This document shows positions 24,608 to 48,842 of a stretch of 52,959 nt of DNA, piece by piece. The position numbers were made by a program, and so were the translations under genes. This DNA is from Verrucomicrobiota bacterium (GTDB lineage: Bacteria; Auribacterota; JABMQX01; JAFGEW01): the NCBI GenBank assembly GCA_016931415.1, contig JAFGEW010000113.1, positions 1 through 52,959 on the forward strand. The letters are read 5' to 3'. The first letter of the stretch is position 1. Every line of letters begins with the position of its first letter. The notes beneath the pieces were generated by a model. It saw nothing but the letters and a program-made list of their open reading frames with translations, had not been told where the DNA came from and searched no databases.

Positions 24608-24828
24608 AGCCCCCGCGGGGGGCGGCATGGTGGTAGCCACGCGCGTGAGCCCGTGGACTACGGGCGGGACAGTGTCCACAAGCCCCCGCAGGGGGCGGCA
24701 TCTGCGCCCCGTCTTTGTCATGTGCCGCCCCCTGCGGGGGCTTGTTTGGAGGAAGGGCAGAGCCGTTCCTGGTTCCACGGGCTGACGCCCGAGGCTACAC
24801 GGTGTTGCCCGCTGCGCGGGCTACGTCG
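24608..24828. repeat. GC-rich REP-like palindromes in the 686-bp ispH-hsp20 gap
   Basis: Within the gap 24480-25165 are clustered repeats. One unit at 24608-24663 reads agcccccgcggggggcggca followed by a tagccacg...cgtggac palindrome. A second is a perfect 22-bp inverted repeat with arms at 24679-24700 and 24723-24744, core GCCCCCGCAGGGGGC, with a 22-nt loop. Further fragments lie at 24773-24795 (ccacgggctgacgcccgagg) and 24808-24822 (cccgctgcgcggg). Related copies are at 30369-30560 and 34370-34435. A 7-bp dyad, CTGGAGA...TCTCCAG, is at 24502-24526. The remaining 24830-25165 shows no supported gene. Confidence 0.75.
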
Positions 24829-25165
24829 GTTGTGGTGGTGCTTCATGGGACGCATAGCTGCCTGTGGCCTCTCCCCATTGTGACCATGGCGGGGACCGTG
24901 TCAAGCCACAGCGACGGACGTCGCGCCTTCCGGGCGCGGCGACCCGCCCGGCATTCCGGTGCGGGCGCGCAACCACGCATGCCGTCAATAGCCTGCCGCA
25001 TCTCGAGGGGCACCGAAGGCCGGGCGATACGGGGGGCCTCGGCCTGCTGAAGTCCTTGTCCTTCGACCATGGCCGACACATCAGGACGTCGGAACCGCCC
25101 GCTATCGGGACCGTATAACAGGATGAGGCGGTTGCTCGGAACAACAGGTATTGGGAGTGTGACAC

Positions 25166-30368: not shown

Positions 30369-30560
30369 AGCCCGCGCAGCGGGCGGCATCTTGTAGCCAC
30401 GGTCGTCAGACCGTGGACCATGGGTTCAACTCGAAGAGCCCCCGCAGGGGGCGACATGCGGGATGTGGGAATCGGCCCTCGACGAGAGAAGATCACATGC
30501 CGCCCCCTGCGGGGGCTCCGCCCGCAGGACTCCTACACTCCACTCCCGCGGGGGCGCCGC
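30369..30560. repeat. GC-rich REP-like palindromes upstream of the dehydrogenase pair
   Basis: In the 341-bp gap 30297-30637. The first unit at 30369-30420 is agcccgcgcagcgggcggca followed by the ccacggtc-gtca-gaccgtgg palindrome. The second is an inverted repeat with arms at 30436-30458 and 30496-30518, core GCCCCCGCAGGGGGC, one mismatch, 37-nt loop. A fragment, cccgcgggggcgccgcc, ends at 30561. It is the same family and the same order of parts as at 24608-24744. No supported gene in the gap. Confidence 0.75.
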
Positions 30561-31678: not shown

Positions 31679-32469
31679 TGGCTGAACGGTTCGCAGACAA
31701 GGCGGTGATTGTCACAGGCGCCGCGCAGGGGCTGGGCCGGGCGTTGGCCGAGGCGTTTCTGCGCGAGGGCGCCGCCGTCGTGCTCGCCGACATCGACGCG
31801 ATCAAGCTCGACGAGACCGTGCACGAGCTCCACGACATGGCGCCGACACGCGTCATCCCGGTCCAGACCGATGTCACGAGCGAGCGCAGCGTCCAGCGCA
31901 TGGTGCAGGCCACGCTCGACCTGCACAAGCGGCTCGATGTGCTCGTGTGCAATGCGGGCATCCTCAAGGCGGGCGCGGTGACCGAATTCGACGCGGCCGA
32001 CTGGCGCGCCGTGGTCGAGGTGAATCTCGTCGGGTATTTCCTGTGCGTCAAGCACGCCGCACGCGTCATGAAGGAGCGCGGCGGCGGCGCCATCGTCCAG
32101 ATCAACTCGAAGTCGGGCCGCGTCGGCAGCTTCCGCAACTCGGCCTACGCCGCGTCGAAATTCGGCGGGATCGGGCTGACGCAGAGCCTGGCGCTCGAGC
32201 TGGCGCCGCACCATGTCCGCGTCAATGCGGTGTGCCCCGGCAATCTGCTCGACTCGCCGCTCTGGGTCGACAGCCTCTACGAGCAGTACGCCGCCAAGTG
32301 GGGCGTCAGCAAGGAAGAAGTCCGCGCGCGCTACATCGAGAAGGTGCCGCTCGGCCGCGGCGGCGAGTATGGCGACGTGACGGCCGCCGTGCTGTTCCTC
32401 GCCGGGGACGAGGCCGGCTACGTCACCGGCCAGGCCCTCAACGTCGACGGCGGCCAGGTCATGTCCTAA
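31678..32469 (+). CDS. SDR-family oxidoreductase, sorbitol-6-phosphate dehydrogenase-like
   Basis: 263-residue classical short-chain dehydrogenase. Cofactor motif is TGAAQGLGRAL, the NAG motif is CNAGILKAG, and the active site is S-x12-YAASK with Ser in INSKSGRVGSFRNS. The C-terminal half has CPGNLLDSPLWVDSL followed by EKVPLGRGGEYGDV and TGQALNVDGGQVMS, a pattern I associate with SrlD/sorbitol-6-phosphate 2-dehydrogenase. Together with the upstream zinc dehydrogenase it suggests a small polyol catabolic unit. The stop TAA lies at the edge of a palindromic repeat (32468-32519). Confidence 0.88.
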   Translation: MAERFADKAVIVTGAAQGLGRALAEAFLREGAAVVLADIDAIKLDETVHELHDMAPTRVIPVQTDVTSERSVQRMVQATLDLHKRLDVLVCNAGILKAGAVTEFDAADWRAVVEVNLVGYFLCVKHAARVMKERGGGAIVQINSKSGRVGSFRNSAYAASKFGGIGLTQSLALELAPHHVRVNAVCPGNLLDSPLWVDSLYEQYAAKWGVSKEEVRARYIEKVPLGRGGEYGDVTAAVLFLAGDEAGYVTGQALNVDGGQVMS

Positions 32470-32519
32470 ATTAGGGACAGGCACTAATTTTCCACGAAAT
32501 AGGTGCCTGTCCCTAATTT
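32468..32519. repeat. Long TAGGGACAG-type inverted repeat
   Basis: Perfect 17-bp arms, AAATTAGGGACAGGCAC at 32468-32484 and its complement at 32503-32519, with an 18-nt loop. The left arm begins inside the SDR stop codon. It is the longest copy of the family also found at 6431-6553, with a fragment (gtgcctgtcccta) near 33136-33150. Besides being a repeat it could end the SDR transcript. Confidence 0.8.
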
Positions 32520-32537
32520 CCGGAGGGAGGTTTGGCC

Positions 32538-43996: not shown

Positions 43997-44094
43997 GCAC
44001 ACGCGACATGTGTTGCCTTCGATCTTGACCGCTCGCGGGGCAACCCGTAGGGTCGAGAATCTCATCCGCCTGCGTGGACACCAGGATTCCGGCG

Positions 44095-45246
44095 ATGATC
44101 GGCATTACGAAACTTGTGTGCGGTACAGGCAGTTGGGGCGATCGCGTGCGCTACGAGGGTGCGCCACAGGACCCGCTCGATCGCCGGCCCGTGGTCGTCT
44201 GGACCATGACGCGGCGCTGCAACCTGAACTGCATCCACTGCTACTCGGACTCGCACGACCAGTTGTACCCCGGCGAGCTGGACGATGCCGCGGCGCGCAA
44301 GCTGATCGGCGATCTGGCCGGGTTCGGCTGCCCGGTGCTGTTGTTCAGCGGAGGTGAGCCGCTGCTGCACCCGAGACTGCTTGAGTACATCGAGCTGGCC
44401 AAGGCCAAGGGCCTGCGCCCGGTGGTGAGCACGAACGGCACGCTTATCGACGAGTCGACGGCGAAGCGGCTCGCCGAGTCGGGCGCCGGCTACGTCGGCA
44501 TCAGCCTCGACGGGGTCGAGGCGGTCAATGATCGGTTCCGCGGCAAGAAGGGCGCATTCAAGGCGGCGCTCAACGGCTTCCACGCCTGCCTCAAGCACGG
44601 CCAGAAGGTGGGCCTGCGTTTGACGCTCACGAAGCGCAACGTAGCCGACCTGGAGAAGATCTTCGACCTGATTGTGCGCGAGGGCATCGGCCGCGCCTGC
44701 TTCTACCACCTCGCCTACTCCGGCCGCGGCGCCAGGCTCCAAGACGTGGATGTGACACACGCCGAGTCGCGAGCTGCCGTCGAGATGATCATCGAGTGGG
44801 CACGCGCGCACCCGAACCTCGAGGTGCTCACGGTGGACAACCACGCCGATGCCGCGTTCCTCGTCATGAGGCTGCGTGCCGAGGGCCACCCAGGCGCCGA
44901 GGACGCCTATCGCCTGCTCCAACACAATGGCGGCAACCAGAGCGGCATCGCCATCGCCTGCATCGACAACGCCGGCAACGTCCATGCCGACCAGTTCCTC
45001 TGGGACTTCTCGTTCGGCAACGTGCGTGAGCGCCCGTTCGCCAGGATCTGGGCCGACACGGCTGATCCCGTGCTCGCCGGGCTGAAGAACCGTGCGCCGC
45101 TTATCAGGGGCCGCTGCGCACCGGCGAGTTGCCGTTGGTTCGACATCTGCAACGCCAACCTCCGCGCGCGCGCCTACGCCACCACAGGTGATGTCTGGGA
45201 AAGCGACCCCGCCTGCTACCTGACCGACGCCGAGATCGCCACGTAG
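44095..45246 (+). CDS. ahbC: Radical SAM enzyme AhbC-like (12,18-didecarboxysiroheme deacetylase)
   Basis: 383-residue radical SAM protein of the alternative (siroheme-dependent) heme pathway used by sulfate reducers, archaea and some uncultured bacteria, removing acetate side chains from 12,18-didecarboxysiroheme. The start MIGITKLVCGTGSWGDRVRY, then PVVVWTMTRRCNLNCIHCYS (CxxxCxxC), FSGGEPLLHPRL and a C-terminal auxiliary cluster region RGRCAPASCRWFDICNANLR, then GDVWESDPACYLTDAEI are the pattern I know from AhbC/NirJ2. The closely related nirJ (heme d1) and ahbD are harder to exclude. No other heme gene (ahbA, ahbB, ahbD) is adjacent. A compound hairpin follows the stop. Confidence 0.85.
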   Translation: MIGITKLVCGTGSWGDRVRYEGAPQDPLDRRPVVVWTMTRRCNLNCIHCYSDSHDQLYPGELDDAAARKLIGDLAGFGCPVLLFSGGEPLLHPRLLEYIELAKAKGLRPVVSTNGTLIDESTAKRLAESGAGYVGISLDGVEAVNDRFRGKKGAFKAALNGFHACLKHGQKVGLRLTLTKRNVADLEKIFDLIVREGIGRACFYHLAYSGRGARLQDVDVTHAESRAAVEMIIEWARAHPNLEVLTVDNHADAAFLVMRLRAEGHPGAEDAYRLLQHNGGNQSGIAIACIDNAGNVHADQFLWDFSFGNVRERPFARIWADTADPVLAGLKNRAPLIRGRCAPASCRWFDICNANLRARAYATTGDVWESDPACYLTDAEIAT

Positions 45247-45293
45247 GCCCCCTGGCCGCAGCCGTGCCGTTCCGGCTCAGGCCGGATGGGGCC
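45246..45293 (+). other. Compound hairpin directly after ahbC
   Basis: Three nested helices around a 10-nt loop: GGCCCC (45246-45251)/GGGGCC (45288-45293), GGCC (45254-45257)/GGCC (45280-45283) and AGCC (45260-45263)/GGCT (45274-45277), with 2-4 nt bulges. It begins at the stop codon. No immediate T tract; a weaker CCAC-TTGCC-GTGG-TTTTT follows near 45340-45357 and may be the actual terminator. Confidence 0.5.
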
Positions 45294-45358
45294 GGATCTG
45301 CACAGATGTCCGCATACATGCAAGACAGCGGACAAGAGCCACTTGCCGTGGTTTTTGC

Positions 45359-45388
45359 TTGACAACGGGGCGCCGGGTGATGTATTCT
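45359..45388 (+). promoter_or_regulatory. Sigma70-type promoter before the candidate ncRNA
   Basis: Perfect -35 TTGACA (45359-45364), 18-bp spacer and -10 TATTCT (45383-45388), predicting a start near 45395. No open frame with a ribosome site follows; the next plus-strand landmark is the terminator at 45858. Confidence 0.6.
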
Positions 45389-45394
45389 TCGCCA

Positions 45395-45893
45395 TGTATT
45401 CTCCCCGATCTGTGTGTCGGGGATATGGGGATTCTGCAGTCGCTATGGCCGGCAGGGTGTGTCTGAGCCGGATCTTAATAGATGGATCTTCAAGGGGGAG
45501 TTCTGAGCTGGTCGCAGTCCCAAGCTCCTGGCGGTGACGCATTATTAACATCTCCCTTGCGTCAACAAGCGCCGCTGTCCGGAGTAAGGGAACGGACCGA
45601 GAGAGGGGGATTCGGTATCGCGGCTTCGTGCAGGCGGATGCTTCCGGGTTGCCTTGCTTACGTTCAGTAAGCCGCTTACCCCCGGTAAGCGCCTTGCTCA
45701 CGGTCAGAGTCTTGTCCGTGCGGTAAGGGTGTTCTCCCGTGTCAGGAAAAACGGCAGCTCGAGGCACGCCCCCCGGGGGCGAGTTGATTCCTGCTCAAAG
45801 CACGGGCGCGTACTCATGAAGTAGTAGGCTAGTACGGACTTTTCCCTGAGCTCCCTCGCGGCGGCGGTCTCCCGGGAACGCCGCCGCTTTTTT
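45395..45893 (+). ncRNA. Candidate structured non-coding RNA of about 500 nt
   Basis: The interval between a good promoter and an intrinsic terminator contains no convincing coding frame but several perfect helices in transcript order: CCCCGA...TCGGGG (45403-45422), GAGCT...AGCTC (about 45506-45528), TGACGCA...TGCGTCA (45535-45564) flanked by GGCGG/CGCCGC, GTCCG...CGGAC (about 45576-45596), and two stacked hairpins GCTTAC-GTTCA-GTAAGC (45656-45672) and CGCTTACC-CCC-GGTAAGCG (45673-45691). It does not resemble tmRNA, RNase P RNA, SRP RNA or 6S RNA in the motifs I know. A riboswitch is unlikely, since no gene follows in the same direction (the next gene is convergent). Confidence 0.45.
45858..45893 (+). 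terminator. Intrinsic terminator of the candidate ncRNA
   Basis: Perfect 9-bp GC stem GCGGCGGCG (45858-45866) with CGCCGCCGC (45879-45887), 12-nt loop, and six T residues (45888-45893). Orientation is plus only, since the minus strand lacks a T run after the stem. Confidence 0.85.
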
Positions 45894-46234
45894 GCGTCTG
45901 CAGAAAAACGATCGGCCTGCTCCCGCCATGTCTCGCTGGGGTGGCGCCGGCGACCAGGACAACGGGAACCGCTCCGTCGCTCGGAACCGAACTCGACAGG
46001 TCTGACCCGTTCCTGGCGCGGCGCCGGAGGCTCGTGGGAATCGTCCCCGGGACGAGAGATGGCGCTCAGGATCCTGGAGGTGCGGGGGCGCGCCTGGGCC
46101 GTCCGCCAAGCGATGGAGATGCGCGCCGACAGCGGCTTTTTCAATCCTTGACCAGAGTCAGGCCGATAGCGCCGGTTGGCGAGTCCCGGCGCCGATGCGC
46201 CTCAGAGAAGGATCTCGCCTGGTCAGCTTGCGGG
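45894..46234. other. 341-bp interval without a supported gene
   Basis: Lies between the terminator and the end of the convergent pseudopilin gene. Minus-strand frames run through it and the ncRNA region, but they are arginine/proline/serine rich with no recognisable domain or ribosome site. Nothing else is seen. Confidence 0.4.
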
Positions 46235-46813
46235 TTAGTTGCGCAGGGCCACGGACTTGGTCAGGTGGATGAAGGCCTGGCGGTCGGTGCCGGGCAGGTC
46301 AGCGACAAGCTTGATCGTGATGTCCACCCGCGCGTCGGTCCGTGCGAACCGGAGCGACTCGATGTGTCCTTGGCCGGAGCTGAGACGTTGCACGTCAGCA
46401 ATGGTCGTGTCTGGCTTGAAGTACACCTCGCCGTCGTAGAGGTAGATGAGGGAGCTGACGTCGTCGGTGCGCGTCTTGGTCGGCGTCGAGTTGCGGTCAA
46501 CCTCGAACCAGATCGAACTGCCGTCCGCGCCGACGACGGCCGTGTCGCTGTTGCCCTCGCGCAGACCGCCCTTGCCGTAGACGCCGCGCATAATGCGCTC
46601 GAGGATGACACCGCCCTCGCGCTCGAGCGCCATGTTCTGGGCGCCCTCGGCGCGCATGCGCAGTCCGCCGATGAACACGGCGCTCACGGCGGTCATCACC
46701 ATCGCGAAGATCGCGATGGCTATCAGCAGCTCAACGAGGGTGAAGCCTCGATTCGACAGGGAGCTGCGGGATACCTGGCGCGGAGTCCGTCTGCATTGTG
46801 TCGGCAAGGCCAT
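46235..46813 (-). CDS. Type IV pilin-like protein, PilW/GspJ type
   Basis: 192-residue minor pseudopilin. A 22-residue basic leader ends in the prepilin peptidase site RG/FTLVELLIAIAIFAMVM, with the conserved Glu5 and hydrophobic helix. The rest is a globular beta-rich domain (SSIWFEVDRNSTPTKTRTDD, SLIYLYDGEVYFKPD). Start at 46813 follows AAGGAGG. It is the last gene of a three-gene minus-strand cluster, separated from the PilV-like gene by 14 bp. Such minor pilins prime assembly of type IV pili or type II secretion pseudopili in the inner membrane. Confidence 0.85.
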   Translation of the reverse strand: MALPTQCRRTPRQVSRSSLSNRGFTLVELLIAIAIFAMVMTAVSAVFIGGLRMRAEGAQNMALEREGGVILERIMRGVYGKGGLREGNSDTAVVGADGSSIWFEVDRNSTPTKTRTDDVSSLIYLYDGEVYFKPDTTIADVQRLSSGQGHIESLRFARTDARVDITIKLVADLPGTDRQAFIHLTKSVALRN

Positions 46814-46827
46814 GGTCGTCGCCTCCT

Positions 46828-47241
46828 TTACGGGCTGAGCCGGGCAATCTGGGTGTTCAGCGTGATCTGCCGCGTCTTCGTTCCGCCCAGATACCGCTCG
46901 GTCCAGCCGACCGTCACCGCAATCTCGTAGACGCCGTCGTCATCGGTGTCCGACACCGTCGTGGTGCGGGTACAGGCAATCGCGGCGGACTGGTCTTCGG
47001 AGTAGTCGAGACTGAGGTTCTCAGTAACGCTATTGCCCATAAGGGACGCCAGCTCAGCTTGCGTCCTGGACTGAATCGCTTCGACGCCGGCCTCGCACAG
47101 GTCAACGCCTTGGGCCGTGTGCCGGGCGCTGTTGACGTTGAACGAGCCGTGCAGGAACGAGAACCACAGCGCCGTCAGCAGGAAAGCGGCCAACAGCATG
47201 GCAATGAGGACCTCGATCAGCGTAAAGCCGCGTTGGTTCAT
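46828..47241 (-). CDS. Type IV pilin-like protein, PilV/GspI type
   Basis: 137-residue prepilin with a very short leader, MNQRG/FTLIEVLIAMLLAAF, including Glu5. The globular part carries NSVTENLSLDYSEDQSAA and VSDTDDDGVYEIAVTVGW; the DTDDDGVYE stretch looks like a metal-binding loop. Its ATG overlaps the stop of the PilX-like gene by 4 bp, so they are translationally coupled. GGGAG precedes the start. Confidence 0.85.
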   Translation of the reverse strand: MNQRGFTLIEVLIAMLLAAFLLTALWFSFLHGSFNVNSARHTAQGVDLCEAGVEAIQSRTQAELASLMGNSVTENLSLDYSEDQSAAIACTRTTTVSDTDDDGVYEIAVTVGWTERYLGGTKTRQITLNTQIARLSP

Positions 47242-48842
47242 TCTGTCGCTCCCAAATCAACTTCACGGAAACAGTCGCGCCTCAGGCTGAAGACATTGAA
47301 ACTGCCAAACATGCCCTGCGGCAGGTGGTAGAGCACCGACGGCACCTGGAAGATGTTCGGCACGTTCGTGCCCATGTCGAAGTAGTCGGAGAAAAACGTC
47401 CCGGTCACGATCGTTTGCTTCGTCGAAGTGATCTGCGTCTCGGCATAGAAGATGCCCTGCACGTAGAGCTGGGCACGGTCAAACAGAATCGTGTTCGGCG
47501 TCATGACGCCAAGGATCGACATCGTCGGAAACATTTCGCCTGCGCGAACGATCAGGTCATTCTCGACTGTCACGTTTCCCGTGGCCAGCACGCATGCCGA
47601 GCCTTGGTAGTACATCATGCCGGAGTTGTCCTTGCCGATGCCAAGGTCGCCCTCGATAACGATGACGCCGCTGACCGTGAGATTGCCGTTGCCGTCGGCG
47701 GAAATGGAGCCGTACTCGTTGCTGTACGAGAAGCTCGAGCTCCGGGTAATGTCGGCGAGCTGGGCGAGTGCGGCCGGATCGGAGATGACAAGTCCGTGGT
47801 CCCGCAGGTAATCGGTATACGAGTCATAGCCCTCGTACGGATCGGAGAGCTTCGGGAAGCCGTCGAAGGTGTCGACAGGCAAGTCGTACGGCTCGTCGGT
47901 GCCGTTATCCGAGTAGACGGCGCTGGCGCCCTTGTTGCCGGTCCAGCCATCGGTGACGTAGGTGCCGTCAACGCGCATCTTGGCTTCGCCGATCTGCGCA
48001 TCGTAGACGATCTCGGTCGTGCCGTCCTCACCGATGTCGGCACTGCCGCTGATCGAGACCTGGCCATAGCGGACACGCACTTCGGTGTCAAGCGTCTCGA
48101 AGAGACGGCCATCCACCATCTCGGCGATCATCGGGATTCTCGATGCGAGCGTCAACGGCAGCCCAATGTAGTTGTTGCCGATATAGGCGCTGCCCGACAT
48201 CTCCATCACCGTGCCATGAAAGGTATCTTCTCCGAGGATGTGCACCGAGCCTCGGATGTCCACGCAGCCGTTGATCGTCCGACCGGCAGCTCCCGCTCCG
48301 GCAAAAATCGCGTTGTTCCACGGGTTGAGATTCTTAATGCGGTACTTGGAGAGCACCGCGCGTGTCTTCCCCCGAACCGTGCCCGTCGAGCGCACCCAGA
48401 TCGCATCGTCGAGGCCGGCGATGTTGGCCATCTCGATCGTGTAGGTGCCGTCGGCGAAGCTGACGGGCCCGGCAAGTACGCGGAAGGTGGGGTAGTAGGT
48501 CACGCCGTCCTCGGCCAAGTAGCCGCCGTCGTACGAGTCGAGATAGAACCGGCCGTCGCGCCACGAGGGCTCGTACCCCTGAGGCGTGTTGATCATGTCT
48601 TCGTAGAGCAGCCGCGCGCCCGTCTCGAGCCCCGCCTCGGCGACATGGAACGCCGCAATCGAGTCGCTGTTCGAGTTGACGATGATGTGCTCGGTCAACG
48701 TCATACCCATGAACGCCGCCACCATGACGGCGCTCACGAGGGCTAGGATAATCACGACCGCGAGTGCGGAGCCGTCCTGGCTGTCGGGAAGTCCAGGCAA
48801 CGGGCCTGCGCGGCGGGTAAGAGCTTTTGTGTTCGCGTTCAT
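47238..48842 (-). CDS. PilX-type pilus assembly protein with large beta-rich domain
   Basis: 534-residue protein. A basic leader ends with DGSALAVVIILALVSAVMVA, the hydrophobic segment of PilX N-terminal family proteins, which use GSAL/GxAL and a downstream Glu (TLTEHI) in place of the GFTLxE pilin site. After EAGLETGARLLYEDM come about 400 residues of beta-rich sequence with short glycine-rich repeats (SGSAYIGNNYIGLP, VSGVIVIEGDLGIGKDNSG, ACVLATGNVTVENDLIVRAG) resembling a beta-helix. Ordinary PilX is under 250 residues, so this is greatly enlarged. It heads the three-gene pilin cluster. Adhesion or priming is inference. Confidence 0.75.
   Translation of the reverse strand: MNANTKALTRRAGPLPGLPDSQDGSALAVVIILALVSAVMVAAFMGMTLTEHIIVNSNSDSIAAFHVAEAGLETGARLLYEDMINTPQGYEPSWRDGRFYLDSYDGGYLAEDGVTYYPTFRVLAGPVSFADGTYTIEMANIAGLDDAIWVRSTGTVRGKTRAVLSKYRIKNLNPWNNAIFAGAGAAGRTINGCVDIRGSVHILGEDTFHGTVMEMSGSAYIGNNYIGLPLTLASRIPMIAEMVDGRLFETLDTEVRVRYGQVSISGSADIGEDGTTEIVYDAQIGEAKMRVDGTYVTDGWTGNKGASAVYSDNGTDEPYDLPVDTFDGFPKLSDPYEGYDSYTDYLRDHGLVISDPAALAQLADITRSSSFSYSNEYGSISADGNGNLTVSGVIVIEGDLGIGKDNSGMMYYQGSACVLATGNVTVENDLIVRAGEMFPTMSILGVMTPNTILFDRAQLYVQGIFYAETQITSTKQTIVTGTFFSDYFDMGTNVPNIFQVPSVLYHLPQGMFGSFNVFSLRRDCFREVDLGATE

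Follow-up and report, generated by a model that had tools for sequence, protein, structure and literature searches.

OLE, ROOL and GOLLD are classes of stand-alone noncoding RNAs, several hundred nucleotides (nt) long and with multibranched predicted folds, that were defined from many sequences; ROOL and GOLLD occur in phage or prophage DNA, frequently close to tRNA islands (PMC12286853). 6S RNA, RNase P RNA and tmRNA are also stand-alone structured RNAs, of 190–400 nt. A simpler anatomy, an intergenic unit with its own promoter and terminator, characterizes bacterial small RNA (sRNA) genes, most of which are shorter than the candidate described here.

The candidate lies in a window of 52,959 nt that constitutes one entire contig (C113) of a 4.06 Mb genome (134 contigs, 98.9% complete), where 988 nt of noncoding DNA separate a radical SAM gene from convergent pseudopilin-like genes (Table 1). 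We read it as a stand-alone, lineage-restricted and independently transcribed gene for a structured noncoding RNA on the plus strand, acting in trans, a proposal that we regard as an even call. Like OLE, ROOL and GOLLD, it would be several hundred nt long and multibranched. Unlike them, it is a single sequence and has no Rfam match, either at the gathering cut-off or at E values up to 10; unlike ROOL and GOLLD, its neighbours are chromosomal genes, and no tRNA or tmRNA was found in the window.

Other identities were considered and rejected. No family of Rfam 15, including OLE, ROOL, GOLLD, HEARO and raiA, matches at the gathering cut-off, and the best sub-threshold match, to sX13, scores 20.3 bits where 50 are required and is driven by the terminator end. 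A divergent RNase P RNA, 6S RNA or tmRNA is disfavoured because the same genome carries each of these elsewhere (contigs C39, C46 and C55). The candidate is single-copy in its genome, which argues against a repeated element, and no match indicates a phage or plasmid origin. Its exact double-hairpin pattern recurs in one viral contig (L110), as an AT-rich phage intergenic hairpin that is unrelated outside the pattern, and two further viral contigs (L117 and L118) share one 19-mer only.

Promoter, terminator and neighbouring genes

The promoter matches the sigma-70 consensus at 10 of 12 positions and is the best plus-strand site of the window in a consensus scan; the same score is reached at one other place in the 53-kb window, on the minus strand at 24904. 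The radical SAM gene, read in the same direction, ends at 45246, 113 nt upstream of the −35 box; from the position of the promoter we infer a transcription start near 45395. Because a similar sequence, TTGACG-17-TAGATT, lies upstream of this genome's tmRNA, promoters of this kind are plausibly used here. The same scan found no plausible promoter upstream of this genome's RNase P or 6S RNA, and it therefore says little on true RNA promoters here. The terminator (45858–45887) is one of three comparably strong plus-strand sites in the window. Folding also revealed a weak terminator-like hairpin directly before the −35 box (z = −3.2 for 45330–45360; 0 of 200 shuffles), which is absent from the consensus scan list. 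This hairpin probably stops or attenuates transcripts arriving from the radical SAM gene, and would insulate the RNA unit from it.

No coding frame was found across about 45250–45900, where all frames score below the background of a codon model trained on the genes of the window; those genes score +0.03 to +0.38 per codon, a contrast that is somewhat flattering, as they are also the training set. None of the four scanned open reading frames (ORFs) of the region has a Pfam match. A protein gene on either strand was rejected for want of codon signal and Pfam match, including the 183-residue minus-strand ORF at 45216–45767. The further ~340 nt between the terminator and the convergent gene (45894–46234), which were covered by the codon scan and the fold scan, have no coding signal either.

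Every Pfam-confirmed gene between 46235 and 52131 lies on the minus strand, and Pfam confirmed no plus-strand gene downstream of the terminator up to 52131. The same-strand gene that should directly follow a cis-regulatory leader or riboswitch is thus missing, making a leader role unlikely. The preliminary description had reasoned in this way from the convergent next gene, and Pfam identifies these neighbours as real pseudopilin genes. It had also reported a TTGACA-18-TATTCT promoter, a strong intrinsic terminator and no plausible protein between them, all of which our scans bear out: the 10/12 promoter and the 13-position stem with its T6 run are in place, and the frames and ORFs lack coding signal. 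At the level of sequence, the locus thus has the promoter, the terminator and the lack of a coding frame that mark a stand-alone noncoding RNA gene; with no downstream same-strand gene, a stand-alone noncoding transcription unit is the most economical reading of these features. Homologs of the radical SAM gene in three other genomes (G008, G013 and G016) are followed by a second radical SAM gene, which is lacking here.

Table 1 Features of the candidate locus and its flanks (window coordinates)
Feature	Position	Strand	Description
Radical SAM gene	44074-45246	+	AhbC/NirJ1 group of heme-pathway enzymes; score below the curated cut-off of each
Weak terminator-like hairpin	45333-45357	+	CAAGAGCCAC/GTGGTTTTTG; T run partly within stem; directly before −35 box
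Sigma-70-like promoter	45359-45388	+	TTGACA 45359-45364, 18-nt spacer, TATTCT 45383-45388
Candidate noncoding RNA, ~500 nt	45395-45893	+	Promoter and terminator, no coding signal, no Rfam match; sequence-level prediction
5′ hairpin	45402-45423	+	TCCCCGAT/GTCGGGGA; pair probability 0.96
Multibranched domain (predicted)	45494-45857	+	Closed by 10-pair long-range helix, pair probability 0.99
Long-range closing helix	45494-45503/45848-45857	+	GGGGGAGTTC/GAGCTCCCTC; 10 pairs, pair probability 0.99
5′ arm of multibranched domain	45505-45600	+	Interrupted stem; z = −2.5
Core	45634-45771	+	Stem 45639-45653/45753-45766 around three hairpins H1, H2, H3
Hairpin H1	45656-45672	+	GCTTAC-GTTCA-GTAAGC; pair probability 1.00
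Hairpin H2	45673-45691	+	CGCTTACC-CCC-GGTAAGCG; pair probability 0.99
Hairpin H3	45692-45728	+	5′ strand repeats H1 5′ strand
CGCCCC hairpin	45767-45781	+	CGCCCC-CCC-GGGGCG; pair probability 0.81
Intrinsic terminator	45858-45893	+	Stem 45858-45870/45875-45887, 13 positions, one mismatch, then TTTTTT
Pseudopilin-like gene run	46235-48842	−	Two N-methyl genes Pfam-confirmed

Hairpins, predicted fold and stability

The unit contains four perfect Watson–Crick hairpins of at least 6 bp (the 5′ hairpin, H1, H2 and the CGCCCC hairpin), where dinucleotide shuffles average 0.8 (p = 0.008); with the threshold lowered to 5 bp the count is ordinary (p = 0.28). The preliminary description counted six perfect helices, a number reached only if shorter or imperfect helices, the terminator among them, are included. 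The two adjoining hairpins that it singled out (45656–45691) are exactly as claimed, and the H1 sequence has no other copy in the genome except H2.

In our model, transcription would start at the sigma-70-like promoter near 45395 and end at the terminator at about 45893, giving an RNA of ~500 nt in which the 5′ hairpin is followed by the multibranched domain with its long-range closing helix. The centre of that domain would hold three hairpins resembling diverged copies of one unit. The repeat shared by H1 and H3 (45651–45667 and 45691–45707) is identical at 15 of 17 positions over a distance of 40 nt, and 0 of 500 shuffles contained a 17-nt direct repeat as good within 60 nt. Pairing is kept across a double change between the two hairpins, U-A (45659–45669) in H1 and C-G (45699–45720) in H3; this one paralogous change points weakly towards structure. 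Such a structured RNA would most likely act in trans, in regulation or by binding protein, with the repeated hairpins as plausible binding units for any partner.

Over the full 503 nt, the folding z-score is −2.3 on the plus strand and −2.2 on the reverse complement, values that are modest and near-equal on both strands; the RNase P RNA (z = −4.5) and 6S RNA (z = −5.1) of the same genome both show greater excess stability than the full-length candidate. The domain alone scores −2.3 on the plus and −1.3 on the minus strand, and the core, a stretch picked after inspecting the fold and the place where the excess stability is concentrated, about −3.9 and −2.0. Sliding windows of 140 nt are ordinary across most of the unit (z above −1.9). 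When the whole contig was scanned in 140-nt windows with 20 shuffles each, the core region was among the better windows and not at the top, many others being more extreme; its independent z in that scan varies from −4.4 to −5.5 with the exact start and is therefore strongly edge-dependent.

Conservation and rival explanations

A blastn search of 43 other genomes of the phylum found no homolog, only matches of 20–43 nt, and the short matches of 20–40 nt fall mostly in the terminator or in single hairpins. Covariance models R1 (45634–45771) and R2 (45505–45602), each built from a single sequence and its predicted structure, were searched in 44 and 39 genomes, respectively, and each matched itself only, with nothing in the 43 and 38 others. 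A control model of the same construction, made from this genome's 6S RNA (R3), recovered 6S RNA in 9 of 38 other genomes and matched the only same-class genome with E = 1.7e-8. The control is imperfect: at 193 positions R3 is the longer model, 6S RNA is of an essential type, and the filters applied to R1 were stricter because its search covered more than 40 genomes. With the control working, the searches indicate that the candidate is not a broadly conserved RNA of the phylum; the nearest genome compared belongs to the same class and none to its genus or family, levels on which the result says little. A scan of genome contigs found no close relative of the radical SAM protein either (best match 59% identical), and the 17 genomes reached through its matches gave no match to the candidate RNA beyond one of 18 nt (E = 0.06).

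Because no homolog was found, there is no covariation to support the helices. The preliminary description had suggested a new ornate RNA class, which the absent homologs and covariation and a modest full-length stability, weaker than that of known structured RNAs from the same genome, leave unsupported. It had proposed covariance searches in related genomes, counting a lack of conservation outside the strain against itself; the searches returned no homolog, and the genomes that they reached were distant ones. We consider it improbable that the locus founds a new class of large structured RNA, confined to an under-sampled bacterial lineage and built on a hairpin module that has been duplicated in tandem within a domain that the long-range helix closes. 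Homologs in several genomes, which such a class entails, were found neither by blastn and R1 in 43 other genomes nor by R2 in 38, and one sequence that has no relatives is not enough to establish a class of RNA.

The more limited reading, a single noncoding RNA gene, is favoured by promoter and terminator matches that are rare in the window, by the lack of a coding frame, by the excess of hairpins of at least 6 bp, by the core (z = −3.9, with a plus-strand preference) and by a repeat that keeps pairing. It is disfavoured by the lack of any homolog despite a working 6S control, by modest full-length stability on both strands, by mostly ordinary windows and by the post hoc choice of the core. 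The chief rival, and a serious one, is unselected spacer DNA with chance signals. The interval would then be an ordinary spacer between convergent genes, with a chance promoter, a terminator that serves the radical SAM gene, hairpins produced by drift or small local duplications, and no functional RNA. Such a spacer would show no conservation in the genomes searched, ordinary z-scores over most of its length and near-equal stability on both strands, all of which are seen, and in GC-rich DNA such hairpins occur elsewhere in the contig too. What it leaves to coincidence is that a promoter whose 10/12 score recurs only once in the contig and a plus-strand terminator with only two comparably strong counterparts there flank a noncoding stretch in the right order, and that hairpins are in excess (p = 0.008). 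We regard it as doubtful, yet worth real weight.

A long 3′ UTR or 3′-end-derived RNA of the radical SAM gene, arising by read-through from 45246 to 45887 with the structure stabilizing or ending the message, seems unlikely. The gene does end shortly before the −35 box on the same strand, and of the terminators that follow it the strongest begins at 45858, but a terminator-like hairpin intervenes between gene and promoter, the promoter match renders read-through unnecessary, and the homologs in G008 and G013 have a second radical SAM gene within ~20 nt, so that a 3′ region of this kind does not accompany the gene across genomes. Lack of conservation is typical of bacterial base-pairing sRNAs, many of which are fast-evolving. 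An antisense-type regulatory RNA, seeding on messages through unpaired segments with its helices as mere stabilizers, would accordingly fit the absent conservation, and it would have its own promoter and terminator; ~500 nt is nevertheless long for such RNAs, and we hold this to be quite improbable. There is very little to recommend a CsrB-like protein-titration RNA carrying GGA motifs on hairpins: the 13 GGA motifs exceed the 8.9 expected from composition only slightly, and most are in predicted stems or open joints rather than in hairpin loops. Genes for large noncoding RNAs are almost never annotated in this poorly sampled phylum, and the locus, if transcribed, would add an uncharacterised one. 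As it stands, it makes a reasonable candidate and not a discovery.

Palindromic repeats elsewhere in the window

The strongest windows of the contig scan are long palindromic repeats away from the candidate. Two intergenic regions, 24608–24798 and 30369–30518, contain a common family of long near-perfect palindromes, AGCCCCCGCAGGGGGCGGCAT and its complement, adjoined by GTAGCCACG...CCGTGGAC. Both strands fold extremely well (z about −6 to −8), and the family resembles a dispersed palindromic repeat of the REP type. An inverted repeat, AAATTAGGGACAGGCAC...GTGCCTGTCCCTAATTT, lies at 32465–32520, with z about −6 on the plus and −5 on the minus strand, directly 3′ of a short-chain dehydrogenase gene; we take it to resemble the palindromes that accompany REP-type transposases.
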